Below are positions 34,326-45,202 of a stretch of DNA of 45,369 nt, in pieces; the first letter of the stretch is position 1; each line of letters starts with the position of its first letter. Position numbers and translations under genes: made by a program. The notes beneath the pieces were generated by a model that was not told the origin of the DNA, did no database searches, and saw only the letters and a program-made list of their open reading frames with translations. Source of the DNA: Bacillota bacterium (GTDB lineage Bacteria > Sysuimicrobiota > Sysuimicrobiia > Sysuimicrobiales > Segetimicrobiaceae). The stretch is taken from positions 1-45,369 of the forward strand of contig JAJPIA010000070.1 of NCBI GenBank assembly GCA_021324975.1. Reading direction: 5' to 3'.

Positions 34326-34778
34326 CTAGGCGAGGGGGCGCGCGTAGTTGCCGGTCTCGGTCTCCGCGGCCTGGCCGAGCACGCGCGCCTGCGGGGCGGC
34401 TGCGTTGCACGTGCGCCGCGCGGTCATCAATCGCACGGCGTCGTCGACATTAGGGAAGATATCGAATACCTCGTGCAGCGACAGTGCGGAGAAGACCTCA
34501 CGCATCGCCTGGGACGTAAAGACCAACGCCAGATCGACATCCATGATGCGGCACCGGTCCCGGATCCCCATGAGCACGTTCAGCGCGGTGCTGTCCAGGT
34601 ACGTCACGCGCGATAGGTCGATCACGAGCGGCAGGCGATCGCGGAGCGCCTGGGTGAGAACGTCCTGCGGGATGTAGATATTGCTCACGTCGATTTCGCC
34701 CTGCACGCGCACGAGGTTGACATGCTCCAGCCGGACCATCTGGCACCACAGCGACTCCGTACCGCGATCCATCACCAT
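34326..34778 (-). CDS. STAS-domain anti-sigma-factor antagonist
   Basis: Predicted 150 residues with one STAS domain (about 15-115): VNLVRVQGEIDVSN, VIDLSRVTYLDSTALNVLM with the phosphorylatable Ser 63, and LALVFTSQAMREVFSAL. SpoIIAA/RsbV-type proteins release a sigma factor by binding its anti-sigma kinase; phosphorylation at that Ser blocks this. No kinase or sigma gene is adjacent. The C-terminal 30 residues (TCNAAAPQARVLGQAAE) extend beyond the domain. ATG 34778 has GGAGG 7 bases upstream. It converges on the HxlR gene with a 27-base gap. Confidence 0.88.
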   Translation of the reverse strand: MVMDRGTESLWCQMVRLEHVNLVRVQGEIDVSNIYIPQDVLTQALRDRLPLVIDLSRVTYLDSTALNVLMGIRDRCRIMDVDLALVFTSQAMREVFSALSLHEVFDIFPNVDDAVRLMTARRTCNAAAPQARVLGQAAETETGNYARPLA

Positions 34779-34853: not shown

Positions 34854-34944
34854 CCCACTCCCCCACGCGGGCGCGGCTTATCCTTCCGCCACGCGGAGCC
34901 CATGACGTAGACCTGCCCACTCCCCACGCGGGCGCGGCTTATCC
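34854..34944. repeat. direct repeat of about 29 bp, two copies
   Basis: CCCACTCCCC(C)ACGCGGGC followed by GCGGCTTATCC occurs at 34854-34883 and 34916-34944, differing by one C. The second copy overlaps the stop codon of the glycosyltransferase gene (34939-34941). The copies are about 62 bases apart in an otherwise gene-free 160-base gap. Confidence 0.7.
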
Positions 34945-35682
34945 CGCGGCGGCGGGCCGGCGCCGCGGACGGCCGAACGCCACGCGCGCAAACGTCGCCG
35001 TGATGCGCACGGTCGCCGCGAGCGTGCCGCGCAGTGTGCCCGACACCTTGGAGGTCCCACCCGCGCGGCGGCGGTGGTCCACCGGCACCTCCAGGATGCG
35101 CAGCTCCAACTCCGCCGCGCGCATCTGCATCTCGAGATTCCAGCCGTACGTCGGCTCCCGCATCCCGAGCCGCTCGAACGCGTCGCGGCGAATGGCGCGA
35201 AACGGACACATGTCGCTGTAGCGCACGCCGTACCGCAGGCGCATGAGGGTGCCCGCGACGTGCGCCGCAAGCACCTGCGACGCGCCCATGCTACCGGCTT
35301 CCCGGCGGCCGCGTACCCGCGAGCCGATGACGAAATCTTGGTCCCCCGCGAGAATCGGTGCGACCAGCCGGTCCATGAGGTCCGGACGGTCGCTGCCGTC
35401 GCCGTCGAGAAACACGAGGACGGCGCACCGCGAGTCGACGGCGCGCGCGCCCGCAGCGCAGGCCCGGCCGTAGCCGCGCTGCGGCTCGCGCACCACCCGC
35501 GCCCCCACCGCCCGCGCCTGCTCGGCGGTGGCATCGTCGCTCCCGTTGTCCACCACGATCACCTCATCGGCGATCGCCCGCGGCACCGCACCGACAACCC
35601 GCGCGATGGTGTCGGCCTCATTGAGCGCCGGAATAACCACGGAGACCCACGCGTCGCGACGCGCCGTGCGCGGATCCGTCAT
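34939..35682 (-). CDS. family 2 glycosyltransferase (dolichyl-phosphate-mannose-synthase-like)
   Basis: Predicted 247-residue GT-A enzyme. VSVVIPALNEADTIARVV and EVIVVDNGSDDATAE start the nucleotide-binding fold, VLVFLDGDGSDRP holds the metal-binding acidic motif, and YGVRYSDMCPFRAIRRDAF and GWNLEMQMRA follow as in DPM1-like enzymes. It lacks a C-terminal membrane anchor. Such proteins transfer a sugar from a nucleotide donor to polyprenyl phosphate or another acceptor. The ATG overlaps the stop of the epimerase gene by 4 bases, and it is the last gene of the nine-gene operon. The stop lies in a repeated sequence. Confidence 0.9.
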   Translation of the reverse strand: MTDPRTARRDAWVSVVIPALNEADTIARVVGAVPRAIADEVIVVDNGSDDATAEQARAVGARVVREPQRGYGRACAAGARAVDSRCAVLVFLDGDGSDRPDLMDRLVAPILAGDQDFVIGSRVRGRREAGSMGASQVLAAHVAGTLMRLRYGVRYSDMCPFRAIRRDAFERLGMREPTYGWNLEMQMRAAELELRILEVPVDHRRRAGGTSKVSGTLRGTLAATVRITATFARVAFGRPRRRPAAAG

Positions 35683-36854
35683 GGGTCGTGCGTCGAGACC
35701 GGATCCGCACGACCGGCCTCCGGCCGCGCCACGCGGCGTACAATCCCCTTGGTGCCGAGGATCGCTTCGGCCGCGGCGAAGTAGTCGCGCACGTCGGCCT
35801 GCCGCCGGACCCACGCCAGATACCGCTCGAGGCCTGCGGGAAGCCCGGTGCGCGGGGTAAAGCCCGCGGTGCGGGCCCGCGAGATATCCGCGGTGAGGTG
35901 CCGGATCTCGCCCGGGCGAAACTCGCCGCGCAGGACCGGCGGGAGCCGGCAACCGAGCGCGCCGGCGAGCATTTCGTACAGATCGCGGATGGACGTGGCC
36001 GTCCCGCTGCCGACGTTGACCGGCATCCCGTCCCACGCCGACGTCGTGGCGGCGAGCAGGTTGGCCTCGGCGATATCCTCCACGAAGCAGAAGTCGCGCG
36101 TCTGCGCACCGTCCTCGTAGATCACCGCGGGGCGGCCGTTGAGCAGGCGGGTGCAGAAGATCGCGATGACGCCGGTGTACGGGTTGAACAGGGACTGTCG
36201 GGGCCCGTAGGTGCACGAATACCGCAGGGCGACGGCCGGGATGCCGGTCTGCTCGGCCCAGGACAAGACCAGGCGTTCCTGCGCCACCTTGCTGATCGCA
36301 TACGGGGTCGCACCGCAGAACGGCGCGTCCTCCCCCGTCGGCACCGAAGCCGTCGGCCCGTCGCAACGCGGACAGTGGACCGTGAAGTCGCCCGCCCGCA
36401 GTTGCGCCACCGGCCGCACCGCGGGATAAGCGGTTCCGTGCGCCGGGCAGGCGACCGCGCCCTCGGCGTACACCACCTGGGAGGACGCCACGATCACCTT
36501 GCGGACCGGCAGCCGTTCGTCGCGGATCAGCTCCAAGATCTGCGCGGTGCCGACGATGTTGACGTCGGCGTACTTCGCGATCTCCGGCATGAACCCGCCG
36601 TACGCCGCTTCGTGGAACACCGCGTCGATGTCGCGGAGCGCCGCGAGCACGAGCGCACGGTCCCGGATGTCTCCCTCGACGAACTCGGCGGCATCCGGCA
36701 CCCACGCGGGCCGGCCGCATCGGTGCGTCTGCGGCTCGAGATTGTCGAGGACGCGGACGCGCCACCCATCACGCAGCAGCCGGTCGACGATATGCGACCC
36801 GATCAACCCGGCGCCGCCCGTGACGAGCGCGCGCCGCCCGATCCGTTCCCGCAT
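35679..36854 (-). CDS. NAD-dependent sugar epimerase/dehydratase with four-ligand Cys/His insertion
   Basis: Predicted 391-residue extended SDR. LVTGGAGLIGSHIVD binds NAD, YxxxK is Tyr 185/Lys 189 (PYAISK), and VALRYSCTYGPRQS and FVEDIAEAN are typical of sugar-nucleotide epimerases. Between about 134 and 166 it has an insertion with Cys 136, His 139, Cys 161 and Cys 164 (ACPAHG, HCPRCDG), which I recall from the dTDP-L-rhamnose 4-epimerase subgroup and which may bind zinc. It would supply an unusual nucleotide sugar to the glycosyltransferases in the operon. Its start follows the previous stop with no gap (TGAATG). Confidence 0.88.
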   Translation of the reverse strand: MRERIGRRALVTGGAGLIGSHIVDRLLRDGWRVRVLDNLEPQTHRCGRPAWVPDAAEFVEGDIRDRALVLAALRDIDAVFHEAAYGGFMPEIAKYADVNIVGTAQILELIRDERLPVRKVIVASSQVVYAEGAVACPAHGTAYPAVRPVAQLRAGDFTVHCPRCDGPTASVPTGEDAPFCGATPYAISKVAQERLVLSWAEQTGIPAVALRYSCTYGPRQSLFNPYTGVIAIFCTRLLNGRPAVIYEDGAQTRDFCFVEDIAEANLLAATTSAWDGMPVNVGSGTATSIRDLYEMLAGALGCRLPPVLRGEFRPGEIRHLTADISRARTAGFTPRTGLPAGLERYLAWVRRQADVRDYFAAAEAILGTKGIVRRVARPEAGRADPVSTHDP

Positions 36855-38201
36855 TCAGGTCTCCCTTCGAAGCACCGGCGATCCCGAGCGCCGGTGGCGT
36901 GCGATCGGCAGCGCGCCGCGCCGCAGGCGCCCGCGGATGTCCGCCCCGACGCGCTCCGCGAGCGCCAAGCCCGCCGTCGGGCCATAGAGCGCGACATCGA
37001 ACGCCAGCATCTCGTCGTTGATACCAAACCACGGCCGGTACCACAACGCGGAGAAGAGGTAGAGGGCCGCGCCGGTCATGTAGAGGAGCGCGATCCGCGG
37101 CGTGAAACAGAGGAGCGCCACGAGCCACCCGAAGTACCAGAGGTAGTGCGTCGACAGGAGCACGAGAAACGCGGCGGCGAACGCGGCGCCGTAGCCCACA
37201 TCGCCGATCGCCGTCCGGTGCTCGGTGCGCCAGACACGATAGGCGAGCAGGAACAGCACGAGCAGCGCCCCGCCGGCATACGCCGCGACGGGCGCGGCCA
37301 CGCCTGCCAGCCGGGCCAGCGTGAGGGCAAAGAACCGGTCGCCGGTGACGATGCCTTCCTCCACGGCGTAGCCCGGCAGAAAGCCGATCACCCCGGTCCC
37401 GGCGCCCAGATACGGCAGATACCCGGCCGCGACGGTCACCGCCAGCGCCACCGGCATCTTCCACGCGCCGCGCCGGTAAAACGCGAACACGAGCAGCGCC
37501 GGATACACCTTCACGAGCGTAGCGCAACCGAGCGCGATGCCGGTGAGACTCTCCCAACGGCGAAAGTGTGCCACTACCGCCACGAGGATGAACGTAATCG
37601 CCGCGGCATCGATGTGGCCGTCCCCGGCGTACTGCCACAGGACCAGGGGATGCCACGCGTACAGCAAGACGCGCTCCCGCGGCAGGCCGGCGAGGCCGAG
37701 GGCCAGGCACAGCAGCCACACGGTCGCGCCTTCGAAGGCGACCACCGCCGCCTTCATCGCCGTCACGGTCTGGCGCACCCGCGTCACCGCGAGGAAGATC
37801 GCCTGAGCTACCGGCGGGTAGATCGTGTGCGCGTAGTCCCGCCGGCTGACGTGCGGGTAGATCGCCGCGTCGCGCAGCCCGACCAGCGCCGGGTCCGCGG
37901 GCACGTACCGGTATGGATTGATGCCGGCTCCCTGCACGCGCCCGTCCCAGATATACCGGTAGACGTCCGCGGAGAACTTCGGCGGGCTCAGGACCAGCGG
38001 GATCCGGCACAGGAGCGCGACGGCGAGGATCACGGTGAGGGCGCCTTTCGTGACGCGCCCGGTGAGGACCATCCACGCCGCGCCCCCGAACAACACCGTC
38101 TGCACGAGCGCGAGGGTCCGCACGGCGAAGATATCCGGGATGTGCGCGCGCTCGCCGTAGACGTAGGACGCCACCGTGAGCGCGCCGAGGCCCGCGAGCA
38201 T
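36855..38201 (-). CDS. polytopic membrane glycosyltransferase (GT87/mannosyltransferase-like)
   Basis: Predicted 448 residues with 10 or more hydrophobic segments. The first external loop contains SADVYRYIWDGRVQGAGINP and YAHTIYPPVAQAIF, the Asp-containing pattern of GT-C enzymes (GT87 and mannosyltransferases) that use lipid-linked sugars. Further segments include LLYAWHPLVLWQYAGDGHID, GCATLVKVYPALLV and THYLWYFGWLVALL. It probably transfers a sugar from a polyprenyl phosphate on the outer face. The frame stays open upstream into the next gene; ATG 38201 is chosen, GTG 38258 is possible. It lies between the TIGR04282-type gene and the epimerase gene. Confidence 0.87.
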   Translation of the reverse strand: MLAGLGALTVASYVYGERAHIPDIFAVRTLALVQTVLFGGAAWMVLTGRVTKGALTVILAVALLCRIPLVLSPPKFSADVYRYIWDGRVQGAGINPYRYVPADPALVGLRDAAIYPHVSRRDYAHTIYPPVAQAIFLAVTRVRQTVTAMKAAVVAFEGATVWLLCLALGLAGLPRERVLLYAWHPLVLWQYAGDGHIDAAAITFILVAVVAHFRRWESLTGIALGCATLVKVYPALLVFAFYRRGAWKMPVALAVTVAAGYLPYLGAGTGVIGFLPGYAVEEGIVTGDRFFALTLARLAGVAAPVAAYAGGALLVLFLLAYRVWRTEHRTAIGDVGYGAAFAAAFLVLLSTHYLWYFGWLVALLCFTPRIALLYMTGAALYLFSALWYRPWFGINDEMLAFDVALYGPTAGLALAERVGADIRGRLRRGALPIARHRRSGSPVLRRET

Positions 38202-38229
38202 GGCGGTCCCGGCGGCAGGTCGGAGCCCG

Positions 38230-39039
38230 TTACCGCGGGACGCCGGCGCGATCTCCACGCTGTTCGGTCGCGGACGGCGCCGCCCAGATGCGTTCCCGTG
38301 CGTGCGCGAGAAGCCGCGCGAGGTACCGGCGGGTGTGGACGGCCGGGTGTCCCTGCCCGCCGTGCCCGTCGAAGCACTCCCGGCACAGGCGGCGCAGGCT
38401 CGACACATCGTCCACGTCATACCACGACGGCAGGATCTCGACCCGCACGCCGGCCTCGGCGGCCCGTGCGAGCGTCTGCGCGACGACCGCCTCCGTCCCC
38501 CACGTGATGTCGGCAAACAGCCTCGGGTCCGGCGCCGTCATGCCGATGAGGTAGTAGCCCCCGTCATCCGCAGGACCGATGACCACGCAGTCGGGATCGC
38601 GCGCCAGCAGCCTCGCCGCCTCCGTGAACATCGCCGGGGGGACGGTCGGGCTGTCGGAGTCGACCAGGCATACGGCGGCGTACCCGGCGTCCCGCAGGTC
38701 CACCGCGGCGGCATACAACCGGTCGCCGAGCGTGCCGCCGCGTTGGAGGACCCGGTGGAACTCCGGAGGCACGAGCGCGTCGAATACCGACTCGCTCCCG
38801 GCCGGTGTGTATGCGACCGCCCCCTCGCATGTTCCGGCGGCGCACGCCGCCGCGATGGCGGCCGCGGTGTCGCGAAGAAAGCATGCGTGGAGCGCGGCGG
38901 CCTCGGCCGCCGACAGCGGTGGCGTCAGGCGGGTCTTGACGCGGCCCGCGAGCGGGGCTTTGGTCATGATCCCGAGCGCGCACCGGCCAGGCCGCGGTGA
39001 GCCGGGATGATCCCCAGGGCGACGATGCACGCCGCTCAT
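38230..39039 (-). CDS. TIGR04282/DUF2064-family transferase (rSAM-associated glycosyltransferase-like)
   Basis: Predicted 269 residues with a CofC/GT-A-like fold. IMTKAPLAGRVKTRLTPPL is the family N-terminal motif, GGTLGDRLYAAAVDL and VCLVDSDSPTVPPAM carry the acidic site, and VVIGPADDGGYYLIGM follows. From memory the family was named as a transferase associated with radical SAM enzymes, including arsenosugar-type loci; a radical SAM gene lies two genes upstream, in agreement. The donor and acceptor are unknown. The ATG at 39039 overlaps the stop of the cupin gene by 4 bases. The C-terminal 50 residues extend beyond the core domain. Confidence 0.88.
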   Translation of the reverse strand: MSGVHRRPGDHPGSPRPGRCALGIMTKAPLAGRVKTRLTPPLSAAEAAALHACFLRDTAAAIAAACAAGTCEGAVAYTPAGSESVFDALVPPEFHRVLQRGGTLGDRLYAAAVDLRDAGYAAVCLVDSDSPTVPPAMFTEAARLLARDPDCVVIGPADDGGYYLIGMTAPDPRLFADITWGTEAVVAQTLARAAEAGVRVEILPSWYDVDDVSSLRRLCRECFDGHGGQGHPAVHTRRYLARLLAHARERIWAAPSATEQRGDRAGVPR

Positions 39040-39458
39040 TTGACCACGGTCGTCTCCTCGGCGCCCTTGGGAATCAACTCCGCCGCCGAGATGCGGGCCG
39101 GGACGGCGCCCCGATTGACAAGCGCGTGCACGTCCCCCGGCACCTCGAGGAAGCTCTCGCCCGTCTTGACGACGCGCTCGCTGCCGCCCCGTTGCAGCAC
39201 GAGCTGGCCGGCCACGACCGTCACCACGACCGGGCCGCCGTGCACGTGCCGCGGCGTCGCGCTTCCGGGCGGGAAGTCCACCACGAAGTCATAGAGATCG
39301 TAGTCGCCGGCCGTCACCGACACGGGGAACGCGGCCACGGTCACCGTCCGAGGCGACGCCCCCGGAGCGGCGGCCCGCACGGCCTCGATCGCCGAGCCGG
39401 TGAGCAGGGCGCCCAGCGCCGCCACTATCACCACCACGTGCCATCGCCGGACCGGCAT
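39036..39458 (-). CDS. exported single-domain cupin
   Basis: Predicted 140 residues. RRWHVVVIVAALGALLTGSA is a signal peptide or anchor. The cupin barrel carries metal-type residues His 71 and His 73 (TPRHVHGG) and His 111 (VPGDVHALVN). Its first motif normally has GxHxHxxxE; here the strand VVVTVVAGQLVLQRGG follows. It probably binds a metal and a small molecule outside the cytoplasm, as an enzyme or a sensor; the substrate is unknown. AGGAGGG precedes the ATG. Its position between the radical SAM enzyme and the transferase, with a 4-base overlap to the latter, makes it part of the operon. Confidence 0.83.
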   Translation of the reverse strand: MPVRRWHVVVIVAALGALLTGSAIEAVRAAAPGASPRTVTVAAFPVSVTAGDYDLYDFVVDFPPGSATPRHVHGGPVVVTVVAGQLVLQRGGSERVVKTGESFLEVPGDVHALVNRGAVPARISAAELIPKGAEETTVVK

Positions 39459-39506
39459 CTCGACCCTCCTCTCCCGCCGTCCCGCTGCGTCAGCGTGGAA
39501 CGGCGC

Positions 39507-40577
39507 CTACCGCGCGCCGCCCTCGCGGGCCATCACGACCGTCGTGCACGAGCTGCTCAGTTTCGGCAGGTCACGCTCGCCGGCGGAACGCACCGCGAGC
39601 CGGATCCGGTCGCCGCGCACGATCGGGCAGTACATGTCCGGGGCATGCAGCGCACCCTGCAGCCGGCGGCGCCCGGCGCACCCGCCGTGGCAGGCCGCGC
39701 GGTAGTCGCACGCTTGGCAGGCGTCGGGGAGCGTGCGCGCCTGCGCGAACGGCTCGGTGTTCACGATGTCGCGCCCCAGGCGCAGGCCCTCGCGGAGCGG
39801 CTCGCCGGGACCCGGCCAGTAGACGCACGGCTGCGTGGTGCCGCGCGGGGTGACCCGCACCGTGCTCACCCCGCATCCGCCCACCGGCGCGGGGAGCCCG
39901 GCCATGGCCCGCACCAATGGCTCGCCGGTCGCGATGACGTCCGTCTCCGCGAACAACGCCCGGAATCCGTCCCAGTACTCCTCGTACGTCAGCGCGTAGG
40001 CGTCGGAGCGCACGGCCTGATACACATTCACCCGCAGCGGCGCATGGAACTTGCGTGCGACGCGCGCCACCTCCGCGAGGCGCAGATAGTTGGACTTCAT
40101 CATCACCGCGATGATGGTCACGGGCACGCCGGCGCGGACACAGCGCGCCGCCTGCTCGTGGATCAGCGCCCAGTTGCCGGCGCCCCGCTGGGCGTCCTGT
40201 TCCCCCTCCGTCGGATAGTCGAGCGAGAACTCGACATCGTGAAACGCTCGCAGTTCGTCGTCCGAGAGGACCGCCACGCTGTAGCCGTTCGAGGTGATCG
40301 TCAGCTTGACGGGTTGCGCGCGCAGGTACGTGAGGATGGCCTTGAAGTCGGGGTGCAACCCGTTCTCGCCCGTGCCCAAGTTGACGGACCGTACGGGGAG
40401 CCGCTCCATGACGGCCTTGACCTGATCCAGCGTGAGCCGATCCACGCGCGCCGGATCCCGGTAGCAGAACGCGCACGCCAAGTTGCACTCGTTCGTCAGG
40501 CCGAGTCCCAGCGCGATCCCGGGCGGCGCGGCCGTGTCCGCCTCCGATACCGGCACCGTGCCGAGGGCGTCGGGCAT
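39507..40577 (-). CDS. radical SAM/SPASM-domain enzyme
   Basis: Predicted 356 residues. The radical SAM cluster motif CxxxCxxC is Cys 31, 35, 38 (NECNLACAFCYRDP). VRSVNLGTGENGLHP and LTITSNGY form the barrel, and VEFSLDYPTEGEQDAQRG replaces the usual DG-xxxH segment. The C-terminal SPASM region has GGCGVSTVRVTPRG, QPCVYW and a cluster of Cys (CQACDYRAACHGGC, MYC), likely holding two more 4Fe-4S clusters. SPASM enzymes modify peptides, proteins or small molecules by radical chemistry. No precursor peptide is evident nearby. ATG 40577 is preferred over GTG 40580 because GGAGG is 6 bases upstream; it overlaps the methyltransferase stop by one base. Confidence 0.92.
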   Translation of the reverse strand: MPDALGTVPVSEADTAAPPGIALGLGLTNECNLACAFCYRDPARVDRLTLDQVKAVMERLPVRSVNLGTGENGLHPDFKAILTYLRAQPVKLTITSNGYSVAVLSDDELRAFHDVEFSLDYPTEGEQDAQRGAGNWALIHEQAARCVRAGVPVTIIAVMMKSNYLRLAEVARVARKFHAPLRVNVYQAVRSDAYALTYEEYWDGFRALFAETDVIATGEPLVRAMAGLPAPVGGCGVSTVRVTPRGTTQPCVYWPGPGEPLREGLRLGRDIVNTEPFAQARTLPDACQACDYRAACHGGCAGRRRLQGALHAPDMYCPIVRGDRIRLAVRSAGERDLPKLSSSCTTVVMAREGGAR

Positions 40578-41440
40578 CACATGCCTCCGTTCCTGCGGGC
40601 CCGGGTGCCGGACCTCGCCAGCAGTTGTGTATAGCGCGCGAGCGCCGCAAACTCGCCGTGTGTGCCCAACGCCTGTTCGAATGCCAGGACGCGGGCGTCC
40701 CCCGCGTCGCGCACCGTGGATGCACCGAGATAGTCGAACAGGATGCGCACGCCCCGCTCGGCCACGGGAAGGAGCGACGCCTCCAGGAGCATCGCCCTGA
40801 GCGCGGCGGGCGTAAACAATCGCACCCGGCCGCCGAACATCGGCTCGTCGGCCTCACCGGTTGCGAGAGCGCGCTCCGCGCCCTCGAGATCACCCGCCTG
40901 GAGCGCCGCGCCAACGACGGCGCCCGCCCAATTTCGCGTCATCACGGAGGCGAGCGACGTGGAAGCCGGCCGCAGTACGTGCGCGGCGGCCCGCAGGATA
41001 TCCGCGGGCGCCTCCGTGTACTCCAGCACATGGTGACAGGTCACCAGGTCAAACACGCCCTGTCCAAACAGAGCCGGCGCCGCGGCGGCGTCGCCGCGCG
41101 TCAGGACGACGCGGTTACTGACTCCCGCCTCGCGAACGGCCCGCTCCGCGACGTCGAGCATCTGCGCCGACCGGTCCAACAGGGTGACGTGGCATCCGTG
41201 GCGCGCCAGGCGGATCGCGAGTTCCCCCGGGCCGCCGCCGACGTCGAGCGCGCGAACCGCTGCTCCACCGGGACCGGTCTGCGGAAGGTACGCCTCCAGG
41301 TTCTTGAAGGCCAACTCACAGCGTAGCCGCCCGGGGGGCGTCTCGAGATAGGCGGCATAGCGGTTCGCGGCGCCCCCGTCGTCCCGGGTGCGCGACGCCG
41401 CGGGCGCCGCGCGCCCTACCGTGCGACGCTCCGCGGTCAC
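40577..41440 (-). CDS. class I SAM-dependent methyltransferase (CmoM/SmtA-like)
   Basis: Predicted 287 residues. RYAAYLETPPGRLRCELAF precedes motif I ALDVGGGPGELAIRLA; VTLLDRSAQMLDVA is the ribose-binding strand, and FDLVTCHHVLEYTEAPADIL is motif IV. The layout resembles CmoM/SmtA-type methyltransferases, which methylate tRNA uridine carboxylate or small molecules; the substrate here is unknown. The GTG at 41440 overlaps the stop of the DoxX-like gene by 4 bases; a longer frame to 41590 would overlap that gene deeply. Arsenite methyltransferase (ArsM) was considered, but the Cys pattern of ArsM is not seen. Confidence 0.87.
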   Translation of the reverse strand: MTAERRTVGRAAPAASRTRDDGGAANRYAAYLETPPGRLRCELAFKNLEAYLPQTGPGGAAVRALDVGGGPGELAIRLARHGCHVTLLDRSAQMLDVAERAVREAGVSNRVVLTRGDAAAAPALFGQGVFDLVTCHHVLEYTEAPADILRAAAHVLRPASTSLASVMTRNWAGAVVGAALQAGDLEGAERALATGEADEPMFGGRVRLFTPAALRAMLLEASLLPVAERGVRILFDYLGASTVRDAGDARVLAFEQALGTHGEFAALARYTQLLARSGTRARRNGGM

Positions 41441-42072
41441 GATAAGAACCTCAGCAGGCGCCCCCACGCCGTGGCCTGCGTCCGGTCCGCACGCCGCAGC
41501 AAGATCGCGTCGATCCCGAGGCTGCGACCCGGCGCGGAGAGAACGAACAGCAGCTGGATGACGATCAGGAACACGTACGTCCACGGCCACTCGTAGGGAT
41601 CTCGATACAGGCCCAGCCAGAGGTTGATCGCCTGCAAGAGCCCGAGCACCGCGCCGAGCCGGCTGAACAGCCCGACGATCAGCAAGACCGCGATCAACAC
41701 CTCTCCGAGGTAGACCTGCGGAGCAAACAGGTAGAAATGCGGTTGGACCACGTCTTTGATGAAATCACGGTGGGCGCCGAATGCCGCATACTGCGCCACC
41801 TGGCCGACCCAAAAGCGGAGCCCGCCGGACCCATCCGGACGGTCGGTGTACGTCGGCGGCAGCTTCCACAGCGTCTGCGTCCACCACATCGTGCCGACGG
41901 CGAAGCGCGCCACCCACGTCCAAAATCGCGTGCCGGAGCGTTGATCGGAGGCGCGGTGCCAATTCACCCACGCCGCGGCGATGCTCACGGCGGCCAGAAT
42001 CCAGAACACGCCCGTGGTCCAGCGCGGCTGCGCCAGGAACCCGACCGCGTCAGCGAACGGTGTCGTTCGCAT
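41437..42072 (-). CDS. DoxX-like membrane protein (thiosulfate:quinone oxidoreductase small subunit-like)
   Basis: Predicted 211 residues with four hydrophobic segments: WTTGVFWILAAVSIAAAWVN, ARFAVGTMWWTQTLWKLPP, LFAPQVYLGEVLIAVLLIVG, and LLQAINLWLGLYRDPYEWPW followed by TYVFLIVIQLLFVLS. The motif YRDPYEWPW is typical of DoxX/DoxD-type proteins. Some members take part in thiosulfate or sulfide oxidation or in redox handling with quinone, but most are uncharacterised. It is the second gene of the operon, 12 bases after the permease gene and overlapping the methyltransferase gene by 4. Whether it supplies a redox function for the cluster is inferred. Confidence 0.85.
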   Translation of the reverse strand: MRTTPFADAVGFLAQPRWTTGVFWILAAVSIAAAWVNWHRASDQRSGTRFWTWVARFAVGTMWWTQTLWKLPPTYTDRPDGSGGLRFWVGQVAQYAAFGAHRDFIKDVVQPHFYLFAPQVYLGEVLIAVLLIVGLFSRLGAVLGLLQAINLWLGLYRDPYEWPWTYVFLIVIQLLFVLSAPGRSLGIDAILLRRADRTQATAWGRLLRFLS

Positions 42073-42084
42073 CGATGCCGGGCC

Positions 42085-43173
42085 TCAGAACCGGAGGAGC
42101 TGGGCGGCGCCTGCCGCGGCCAGCCCGAGACACGCCACCAACGCCGCGGTCAGGGCTAAGACCCGGACCGGCAGCACCCGCCCCATCATCACGAGCGACG
42201 GCAGGCTCACCGGGGCAAGGGTGGTCAACAGGACCGCCGCGCCGCCGGCGCCCAGCCCAAAAGACATCAGCGTCTGAACGATGGGAACCTCGCCGGCCGT
42301 CGGGATGACAAACACCGTGCCCGCGACGGCAAGCAGCGGCAGCACGAGGGCGCTGTGCCCGATCGCGGGGGTCACCGCGGGGAACATCCACGCGCGCATC
42401 GCCCCAAGCGCGAGGACAATGACGGCGTATTCCGGGACAAGCCCCGAGGAGAGCTGCCACAGGGCCCGCCCCCAGCGGCGCACGAGCGAGCGGGCATCGT
42501 AGGCTTGACGCGCCGACGGTGCGACCGGCACCGCTGCCGGCGCCGTTGCCACGGTGGTGACCCGCTCGGTAAGATACGCGGCGGTGAAAACGAGCACAAC
42601 GCCGGCGACGACACGAAGCGCGACCCAATGCCACCCGAGGACGAATCCCAGGAAAATCATGGTGGCGGGATTGAGGGTGGGATTGCCGAGCCAGTACGCG
42701 ACGGTGGCTCCCGTGGAGGCGCGGCTGGTCCGGAGCCCGATCGCGACAGGCGCGGCGCAGCAGGTGCACATCATCGACGGCACGGAGACGCCGCCGGCGA
42801 GGGCCGTGCTCAGCCACCCCGCCTTGCCGAACGCCCGCGCCGGCCACTCGCGCGGCAGCAGGACTTGCACGGCGGAGCCCACCAGCAGGCCGAGCACCAT
42901 GGCCTGCCAGATTGCGCCGAAGTACGCGACCGTGAACGACCACGCCGCGCGCCATCCGACCGCCGGGGGCGCGGCTCCCGTGCCGCTGATGATCGAGGGC
43001 CCGATACTGTGCCGTGCGATGGCCGTGAACGCCTTGTGAAAATATGGGCCCCACTTCACGTAGTACAGGCCCGCGACGGTCATGGCGAAGAACAGGGCGA
43101 TGGCCCACGGCACGAGCCGCATGCCCGCCGCCGGGATGCCCCCCTCCCGCTCAACAGCGACCGACTGGTCCAC
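42085..43173 (-). CDS. permease of the ArsP_1/DUF318 (PF03773) family
   Basis: Predicted 362 residues with about 8-9 helices in two repeated halves. The first half has SVPSMMCTCCAAPVAIGLR (Cys 136, 138, 139) and YWLGNPTLNPATMIFLGF, the family signature; the second half is VFVIPTAGEVPIVQTL. ArsP, the best-studied member, exports trivalent methylated organoarsenicals with conserved Cys; other members are uncharacterised. GTG 43173 has GAGGGG 8 bases upstream; the frame extends upstream without a good start. It is the first gene of the nine-gene operon, which suggests export of its product or of a toxic intermediate. Confidence 0.85.
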   Translation of the reverse strand: MDQSVAVEREGGIPAAGMRLVPWAIALFFAMTVAGLYYVKWGPYFHKAFTAIARHSIGPSIISGTGAAPPAVGWRAAWSFTVAYFGAIWQAMVLGLLVGSAVQVLLPREWPARAFGKAGWLSTALAGGVSVPSMMCTCCAAPVAIGLRTSRASTGATVAYWLGNPTLNPATMIFLGFVLGWHWVALRVVAGVVLVFTAAYLTERVTTVATAPAAVPVAPSARQAYDARSLVRRWGRALWQLSSGLVPEYAVIVLALGAMRAWMFPAVTPAIGHSALVLPLLAVAGTVFVIPTAGEVPIVQTLMSFGLGAGGAAVLLTTLAPVSLPSLVMMGRVLPVRVLALTAALVACLGLAAAGAAQLLRF

Positions 43174-43384: not shown

Positions 43385-45202
43385 TCAATCGCGTCGTGAG
43401 AGGCGGACATAGTACGGCGTCGCACCGACGCGGCGCCACCCCGCGGGAACGCGGCCCGGCGGGACGTCCTCGGTGACGACGGCTCTGACGCCGGCCGACA
43501 CGAGCGCGCGCAGTGTTCGCCGCTGCGCGCCCGGGGACGCGGTCCAAAATGCCCGCACCGCCTCGTCGGGCACTTCGGCGACCACGCGTACTCCAGCCAG
43601 CCTCGCCCAGTACTCCGGGAACGCGGTGCCGATCACCGCCACCGCGTCGCCCGTCTGCACCCCCATGGCGCGGAGGCCGGCGGCGACCTGCGCCGGCCCT
43701 GCCTGCGCCGGCGCGTCGATACTGCGGAGGGATTCGATGCCGCGACTCAGGAGCATGATCAGCGCGACCGTCACGAACGCGCCTGCGACCGCGCGCACAC
43801 CCGCCGCCGTTCGCCCGCCCGGGGGAAGTCGCACCGTGGAGAGTACGCCCACCCAGAGCAAGACCATGAACAGGGCGACAAACCGGGGCTCGATATAGAC
43901 ACAGATCAGCCCCGCGAGCCCGAGGCACGCTAGGAGCAGGATGCCCCACACGCGGGCCAGGCTTTGGATGAACCTCTGCGCGGATCCGCTGACCACCGTC
44001 CACCAGGACAAGGTGAGCATCACGAGCGTCGCGGCCCCGTTGTTGACCAGCACGATATGCGCGAGCCTCGTGAGGTTGATGGCGATCGCCGTGGCCAGTC
44101 GGCCCGGCACGAAGCACGGTTCGATCCCATCATACCAGTACGCGGGTGCGTACCAGAGCGGGTATGTGGTGCGAAAGGGCGCCGCAAACTCATACACCGC
44201 GGGCGCGCCGGCGATGCGGTGGACAGGGTGCTCCGGCACGCCGCAGCCCGGCGGTCCGCCGCGCCAGTGAACGTAGGGCACGCCGTCGACGTGGTAGGCG
44301 TAATTGAGGACGGCCGTGTCTCCCGCCGTCAGGTGCCCCTCCTGCACGGACAGGGCGACGACGAACGGCGCGGTGACCGCGACGAATACCGCGATGCCGA
44401 GCAAGGCGGCGCGCCTCGTGCCGGGCTCGCGCGAGGCCGCCCACAGGGCCGCGAGGAGCACGACGGCGAGCGGTAGGATGAGCGCCCGGCTCAAGTAGCC
44501 GACGGCCAGCACGACCCCGAGCGCGGGCAGCCGCCATGTGTCGGGCTTCGGACCGTCCGGCCGGACCAACAAGGCCCCCGCACTGTAGACGAGCGCGGCC
44601 GCCAGCAGGTCGGGCGCGACGACGGCGACGCCGGTGGCCACGAGTGATGCGGAGATGAAAACGGGATAGCCAATCGCAAACCAGGCCCACCGCGGCAGGG
44701 GCGCGAGACCGTCGGCCCCGGGGTGCCGCGCCTCGCGCTCGCTCCGCGCCACGAGCCTGCGCAGAAACGCGTCAAAACAGAACAGCGCTGCCGCATAGAT
44801 CGCGAAGTTGACCGCGTGCACCACGGGGAACTCCCAGAAGAGACCCGGCCGCACCACACGCAGGACGCCGCCGAGTAGCACGCCATAGAGCGGGCTCCAC
44901 AAGCCGTTCAGGGCGGCGTGCCAATCGCCGCGCCAGAAGGCGTCGCCCATGTCGAGGTAGGAAATGCCGTCCGGATTCATCGCGTTGCGCGATGCGACGG
45001 CGTCGATGAATCCGAGGACCAATCCGAGCGCAAGAAGCAGCCGGCGAAGCGTCGTGGCGCGGGCCCGGGCAAGCGGGACGACCGGCGCATCGGTGGCGCT
45101 CAGCGGCCGCGGGGCATCGGCCCGGGCGAGAGCGTCCCGGGGCGGCGCCGCGTCTCGTCGCGCCTTCACCGCCCGATCGAGTCGTGACGACGTCGGAAAC
45201 AT
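43385..45202 (-). CDS. large polytopic membrane protein, GT39-like glycosyltransferase
   Basis: Predicted 605 residues with about ten hydrophobic segments and a C-terminal soluble part (about 490-605). The first external loop DAVASRNAMNPDGISYLDMG carries the Asp pattern of GT-C enzymes, and VVAPDLLAAALVYSAGALLV and LSRALILPLAVVLL follow. It resembles dolichyl-phosphate-sugar protein transferases without matching any family closely. ATG 45202 lies in the last copy of a 72-bp tandem repeat; the frame stays open through the upstream copies to the window edge, so the true start may be upstream or at GTG 45169. It is separated from the operon by 211 bases. Confidence 0.75.
   Translation of the reverse strand: MFPTSSRLDRAVKARRDAAPPRDALARADAPRPLSATDAPVVPLARARATTLRRLLLALGLVLGFIDAVASRNAMNPDGISYLDMGDAFWRGDWHAALNGLWSPLYGVLLGGVLRVVRPGLFWEFPVVHAVNFAIYAAALFCFDAFLRRLVARSEREARHPGADGLAPLPRWAWFAIGYPVFISASLVATGVAVVAPDLLAAALVYSAGALLVRPDGPKPDTWRLPALGVVLAVGYLSRALILPLAVVLLAALWAASREPGTRRAALLGIAVFVAVTAPFVVALSVQEGHLTAGDTAVLNYAYHVDGVPYVHWRGGPPGCGVPEHPVHRIAGAPAVYEFAAPFRTTYPLWYAPAYWYDGIEPCFVPGRLATAIAINLTRLAHIVLVNNGAATLVMLTLSWWTVVSGSAQRFIQSLARVWGILLLACLGLAGLICVYIEPRFVALFMVLLWVGVLSTVRLPPGGRTAAGVRAVAGAFVTVALIMLLSRGIESLRSIDAPAQAGPAQVAAGLRAMGVQTGDAVAVIGTAFPEYWARLAGVRVVAEVPDEAVRAFWTASPGAQRRTLRALVSAGVRAVVTEDVPPGRVPAGWRRVGATPYYVRLSRRD

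Follow-up and report, generated by a model that had tools for sequence, protein, structure and literature searches.

What does a bacterium make with a radical S-adenosylmethionine (rSAM) enzyme of the SPASM type when its gene is packed between a methyltransferase, membrane proteins and a run of sugar-related enzymes? The question is raised by nine consecutive minus-strand genes at positions 34939-43173 of contig JAJPIA010000070.1 (Bacillota bacterium, assembly GCA_021324975.1). The window analyzed here is that whole contig (C17), 45,369 nucleotides of a 4.43 Mb draft genome. An initial annotation had read the nine genes as a single pathway that could build, glycosylate and export an unusual methylated or radical-modified metabolite; the row of genes is where it was placed, each gene open on the strand given, and the pathway interpretation is partly supported by what follows. 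Our sequence comparisons indicate that the gene set is a real cassette, horizontally spread among phyla. That it is a selenium-linked biosynthetic locus, with a glycosylated seleno-metabolite distinct from selenoneine as its likely product, is the reading we favor, and we hold its chances to be about even.

A recurring gene set in distant phyla

A collection-wide scan for relatives of the rSAM enzyme returned 77 loci, from Acidobacteriota, Alphaproteobacteria, Methylomirabilota/Rokubacteria, Binatota, a single member of the Planctomycetota and a single relative of the window within Bacillota. Neighborhoods were counted from simple gene calls and clustering, and 32 loci had 5 kb or more of flanking sequence in both directions. 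Among these well-flanked loci, a DoxD/X membrane protein was found in 30, a GT2 glycosyltransferase in 27, a TIGR04282 transferase in 25, a GT-C membrane glycosyltransferase in 24 and a methyltransferase near the rSAM gene in 22. At the level of gene content, linkage and co-occurrence, the recurring core shown by these comparisons across phyla is rSAM/SPASM, DoxD/X, GT2, TIGR04282, GT-C and, usually, the methyltransferase, and its carriers almost always have SelD; the mechanism proposed further below draws on knowledge of the families. Of the ArsP-type permease, rSAM and TIGR04282, to whose pairing attention had first been drawn, the latter two belong to the core; the permease (4/76 loci), the cupin (7/76) and the epimerase, confined to the window lineage and the Blastocatellia locus L057, are by their distribution lineage-specific extras outside the core.

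In genome G002 (L027), the window gene order is intact at 85-92% identity, apart from a mostly deleted methyltransferase: between DoxD and rSAM, an in-frame internal deletion leaves ~60 residues (L021:14364-14501). Among 60 relatives, the rSAM enzyme is found at 80-91% identity in only three close genomes. Because the order is kept in G002 and the same families stay together in other phyla, as a single pathway would predict, we take the cassette to be a real unit. In the rSAM tree the window lineage is nested inside Acidobacteriota, with support of 96/92, and horizontal transfer is therefore indicated. No plasmid-borne copies of the cassette were found. A literature search in an open library returned no paper describing it, and TIGR04282 surfaced there in only two unrelated papers.

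A conserved exported protein or lipoprotein of ~237 residues (L062:14475-15194) has counterparts in 34 loci, mostly acidobacterial, where it usually adjoins GT-C/TIGR04282; the one member tested had no Pfam or NCBIfam match.

Association with SelD

SelD scored above its curated cut-off in 48 of the 50 carrier genomes tested, and all four carriers from the window's family have it. Alphaproteobacterial carriers have it in 20/22 genomes, compared with 8/149 in a sample of other genomes from the order to which Methylobacterium belongs (Fisher 1e-17, with kinship ignored and some carriers coming from other orders). The contrast is smaller in Acidobacteriota, 21/21 carriers against 110/146 of the background (p 0.004, kinship again ignored). 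The linkage is also physical: selD or a FAD-SelD fusion, with catalytic Cys and Lys kept, lies 0-5 genes from the rSAM gene in 20 loci, and in Alphaproteobacteria selD stands inside the cassette. Beside selD/FAD-SelD we find a PhnCDE-like ATP-binding cassette (ABC) transporter, whose binding protein scores above the cut-off of TIGR04553, 'putative selenate ABC transporter', together with a PNP-family phosphorylase and a second SPASM rSAM enzyme. The latter (L067:1087-2157) represents a family with a CxxTCPRT motif, present in most alphaproteobacterial and Methylomirabilota cassettes and nearest, under cut-off, to the tungsten cofactor maturase TIGR04317.

Genomes that encode SelD with no apparent use of selenophosphate were pointed out in 2008 (PMC2276186, PMC2432076) and listed again in 2015-2016, in papers that acknowledge the orphan SelD of Methylobacterium nodulans, among others, as a puzzle still to be solved (PMC5322559, PMC5029168). 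Thirteen SelD-positive alphaproteobacterial carriers, all of them outside Methylobacterium, had no SelB above cut-off. SelU was found in none of 51 genomes, and SelU-dependent selenouridine was accordingly rejected as the reason for selD. SenB is missing as well from 11 of the 13, which makes these 11 candidate orphan-SelD genomes by the three markers. Most genomes are drafts, in which the absence of SelB, SelU or SenB may reflect incompleteness; this does not apply to the isolates that fit the description, Bosea vaviloviae SD260 (L068) and Roseomonas sp. CECT 9278 (L084). With confidence falling somewhat short of even, we suggest that a glycosylated seleno-metabolite made via rSAM/SPASM is a further SelD-dependent trait, beyond selenocysteine, selenouridine, the molybdenum-hydroxylase cofactor and selenoneine/ovoselenol, and that it accounts for orphan SelD in Bosea- and Roseomonas-related Alphaproteobacteria.

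Selenoneine genes and a TGA-bearing permease

SenA and SenB, both above cut-off, adjoin the cassette in the Blastocatellia locus L057 and the alphaproteobacterial locus L083, and both stand beside it in Methylobacterium brachiatum (L080/L126). In the window genome they lie outside the cassette, on contig C63. There, a paralogue of the window permease, 63.6% identical to it, is encoded directly upstream of senA-senB-egtD, with an in-frame TGA exactly at the position of Cys136 in the window protein (MMCTCCAAP). The permeases upstream of senA in G005 and G002 have TGA at this position too, and the window gene has a Cys codon there (SVPSMM-C136-TCC-AAP). The senA-linked TGA permease is probably a selenoprotein of selenoneine operons, judging from this codon and its context. 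The window genome encodes SelB, and its selD has an in-frame TGA of its own. Just downstream of the permease UGA, a GCCCCACC-GGC-GGUGGGGC hairpin, a candidate bSECIS element, reached a suggestive z score of -1.8 on 46 nucleotides and was not significant on a longer stretch. The best NCBIfam match of the window permease is SO_0444 Cu/Zn efflux, a family listed in a 2026 review as a selenoprotein family with the motif UxC (PMC13188914), although the protein scores under both NCBIfam equivalogs (SO_0444 and SaoE).

The radical SAM/SPASM enzyme

The cluster motif CxxxCxxC (C31/C35/C38) and seven SPASM cysteines (C235, C251, C287, C290, C296, C300 and C317) are invariant in 56 orthologues. Beyond the SPASM domain and after a variable linker, residues 335-348 form a C-terminal motif, [DE]LPKxxSxCTTxV. 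Its C344-T345-T346 is invariant in 56/56 and K339/S342 are kept at 98%, in a set made up of complete proteins preselected for CTT within the last 40 residues; among all 76 called orthologues, CTT is missing only at contig ends or in L083, where the tail is lost. That L083 gene (310-1302) has probably undergone a frame change, by decay or assembly error, in a locus that holds senA, senB and FAD-SelD. The tail may act as an extra cluster ligand, a selenium carrier or a self-substrate. Selenocysteine at this position was considered and rejected, as a Cys codon stands there in every complete orthologue that was read.

The AlphaFold model has a pLDDT (predicted local distance difference test) of 90.7, with 70-88 in the tail blocks. 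Its fold neighbors are CteB, BlsE, SuiB, SkfB, anSME and PqqE, peptide and small-molecule SPASM enzymes, and the top NCBIfam model is MftC (TIGR03962), aligned over its full length at 76 bits. Both results would suit a mycofactocin-like alternative, in which an MftC/PqqE-type enzyme, GT2 and the methyltransferase act on a substrate that the cluster does not encode and yield a glycosylated redox cofactor, selenium being incidental. A GT2 and methyltransferase pair also resembles MftF/MftM. We consider this unlikely, even if it fares best among the alternatives, as the MftC score is far under the cut-off of 265, the neighbor families include no conspicuous MftA/B/D/E-like partner, and the selD of alphaproteobacterial cassettes would be left unexplained. 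Nor did an all-against-all search reveal a convincing conserved open reading frame of 20-110 residues within 4.5 kb of the rSAM gene across loci, which leaves room for a precursor peptide that is not conserved. The clusters of small reading frames that it did return were rejected as precursors, since they appear to be antisense shadows of genes in the cassette.

Organization of the window block

Named families in the initial annotation match Pfam and NCBIfam (Table 1), with PF03773, TIGR04282 and SPASM all above cut-off; the GT-C protein resembles GT87 only below the Pfam cut-off. AglJ is the top NCBIfam model for the GT2 protein (118 bits, under cut-off).

Table 1. Features of the cassette in the window and of senA-linked permease genes in three genomes.
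Feature	Length (aa)	Position	Strand	Basis
GT2, AglJ/DPM-like polyprenyl-phosphate sugar synthase	247	34939..35682	-	Glycos_transf_2 E 1.5e-25
NAD-dependent sugar epimerase/dehydratase	391	35679..36854	-	PF01370 Epimerase 161 bits
GT-C membrane glycosyltransferase, GT87-like		36855..38258	-	GT87 E 6e-4, under Pfam cut-off
TIGR04282/DUF2064 transferase	269	38230..39039	-	TIGR04282 174 bits vs cut-off 134
Exported-type cupin	140	39036..39458	-	Cupin_2 E 5e-14
Radical SAM/SPASM enzyme	356-357	39507..40580	-	PF04055 E 3.8e-13; TIGR04085 SPASM over cut-off
Class I SAM-dependent methyltransferase	287	40577..41440	-	Methyltransf_11/25 E ~1e-17
DoxD-like membrane protein	211	41437..42072	-	PF04173 DoxD 35 bits, passes Pfam DoxD
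ArsP_1-family permease	362	42085..43173	-	PF03773 E 3.8e-19, 69 bits vs cut-off 32
Tenth gene, large membrane protein	605	43385..45202	-	set membership from G001/G002 gene order
TGA-bearing ArsP_1-type permease directly upstream of senA		L125:5196-6218 (contig C63 of the window genome), L133:2319-3362, L132:2588-3586		MM-U-TCCAAP, three genomes

The block is as compact as first described, with a zero gap at GT-C/epimerase and a widest gap of 48 bases at rSAM/cupin. Four overlaps of 4 bases had been counted. Three are certain (DoxD/methyltransferase, cupin/TIGR04282 and epimerase/GT2), and the one at methyltransferase/rSAM depends on the start chosen for rSAM, being 4 bases with GTG at 40580 or 1 base with ATG at 40577. 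TIGR04282 and GT-C likewise overlap by 29 bases (start GTG 38258) or are separated by 28 bases (ATG 38201). Scans for sigma-70 promoters and terminators gave nothing above chance level.

A tenth gene is co-directional with the nine and precedes ArsP in the same order in G002. In G001 it heads a run of TIGR04282, GT-C, epimerase and GT2, divergent to a run of ArsP, DoxD, methyltransferase, rSAM and cupin, and we include it in the cassette because of this place at the head of the sugar genes. Its product had no family match in Pfam or NCBIfam and is probably GT-C-like. Just downstream of the cassette, a STAS-domain (anti-sigma antagonist-like) gene at 34326-34778, which stands beside the cassette in G002 too, is probably outside it.

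A possible pathway and its alternatives

How might these enzymes work together? SelD would supply selenophosphate, and the rSAM/SPASM enzyme would form or alkylate a small selenium-bearing core, usually together with the methyltransferase; Cys344 of the invariant tail may relay selenium or a radical. An activated sugar would come from TIGR04282 and the AglJ-like GT2, with GT2 loading polyprenyl phosphate and the epimerase, where present, tuning the sugar, and GT-C would carry out sugar transfer on the outward-facing side of the membrane. The DoxD-like protein would exchange electrons with the quinone pool, and selenium species would be moved by the ArsP-type permease in the window lineage or by the PhnCDE-like ABC system in Alphaproteobacteria. 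If such a pathway exists, the cassette could explain bacteria that activate selenium without a recognized use for it, and it would suggest roles for the widespread TIGR04282/DUF2064 family, TIGR04553 and FAD-SelD fusions. In any case, it offers a concrete cross-phylum gene set, physically including selD in Alphaproteobacteria, that bears on the orphan-SelD question.

Several observations weigh against a seleno-metabolite. SenA and SenB are missing from most carriers, the window and acidobacterial cassettes hold no selenium gene inside, and none of the enzymes in the window core has a proven role in selenium chemistry. Because SelD is found in 12/12 genomes of the window's own family, cassette present or not, and is common in Terriglobia (115/151), the argument from its co-occurrence with the cassette is strong only in Alphaproteobacteria. 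The name of TIGR04553 is itself, we presume, a genome-context prediction. Finally, neither the methyltransferase nor ArsP is essential, because the former is mostly deleted in G002 and the latter is lineage-specific.

Besides the mycofactocin-like alternative, the set could be two independent neighbors, an envelope-glycan module (TIGR04282, GT-C, GT2, epimerase and the tenth gene) and an rSAM, methyltransferase, DoxD and ArsP module, kept close by chance or shared regulation. The divergence of the two in G001 and their convergence in most Terriglobia would fit, as would the lack of a sugar gene below the cupin in G004, where the contig nevertheless ends on the DoxD side. However, the modules are adjacent in several phyla, the sugar genes are co-directional with rSAM in twelve loci, the window included, and DoxD/X switches sides yet remains in the set; we judge such independence doubtful. 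Selenium or metalloid detoxification and export, with the methyltransferase and rSAM enzyme alkylating selenium and ArsP or ABC systems moving it, is improbable. ArsP-family permeases export methylated metalloids, and the listing of SO_0444 among selenoprotein families is in keeping with such a role, but detoxification would have no need for SelD, for three glycosyl/nucleotidyl-type transferases or for a high-affinity ABC importer. Least probable of all is an arsenosugar or organoarsenical locus, with ArsP exporting and TIGR04282/GT2 glycosylating an arsenic compound: TIGR04282 is named for arsenosugar loci, an ArsP_1 permease is present and a deoxyadenosyl intermediate would be in line with the PNP-type phosphorylase seen in part of the alphaproteobacterial loci, but ArsM and ArsS are absent from the window cassette, as initially noted, with only generic or below-cut-off matches (for the ArsS model TIGR04167 against rSAM, 26.6 bits, E 3e-6, cut-off 300), ArsP is rare among the loci, and the cassette's neighbors are selenium genes. 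Of the likeness first seen to arsenosugar or thio/selenosugar loci, the arsenic part is thus not supported, and the comparative evidence picks selenium.

Comparison with known systems

Like the mycofactocin cluster (MftA-F, MftM), the cassette has a SPASM rSAM enzyme that aligns along the full MftC model and a GT2 and methyltransferase in the set, but no precursor peptide was found within the reach of our search, the rSAM score is far from the family threshold, and the links to SelD and DoxD have no counterpart there. Arsenosugar loci (ArsM, ArsS, TIGR04282, TIGR04283) similarly combine a methyltransferase, a radical SAM enzyme, TIGR04282 and a GT2. In the cassette, however, the rSAM is a SPASM enzyme and not ArsS, the only models whose cut-off the window methyltransferase passes are generic Methyltransf families and not ArsM, and the AglJ-like GT2 falls under the TIGR04283 cut-off.

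The selenoneine pathway (SenA, SenB, SenC/SelD) is close in being a SelD-dependent use of selenium in a small molecule with a sugar step, and its genes adjoin the cassette in the loci described above and occur in the window genome as senA-senB-egtD. Unlike that pathway, the cassette core contains neither SenA nor SenB, most carriers lack SenB, and the cassette adds rSAM, GT2, TIGR04282, GT-C and DoxD. The orphan-SelD genomes of PMC5029168 and PMC5322559 share with our candidates a SelD without selenocysteine or selenouridine machinery, and Methylobacterium nodulans is listed there, while Methylobacterium species carry the cassette beside selD. They differ in that the Methylobacterium cassette carriers tested have SelB and that the neighbors of orphan SelD named in PMC5029168 are isochorismatase-like, ABC-ATPase and cysteine-desulfurase-like proteins; radical SAM enzymes go unmentioned in both papers. 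The cassette resembles the arsenosugar and mycofactocin systems but lacks hallmark genes of each, and it is linked to selenoneine genes yet distinct from the selenoneine pathway; we therefore regard it as an rSAM-centered small-molecule locus, probably dependent on selenium.

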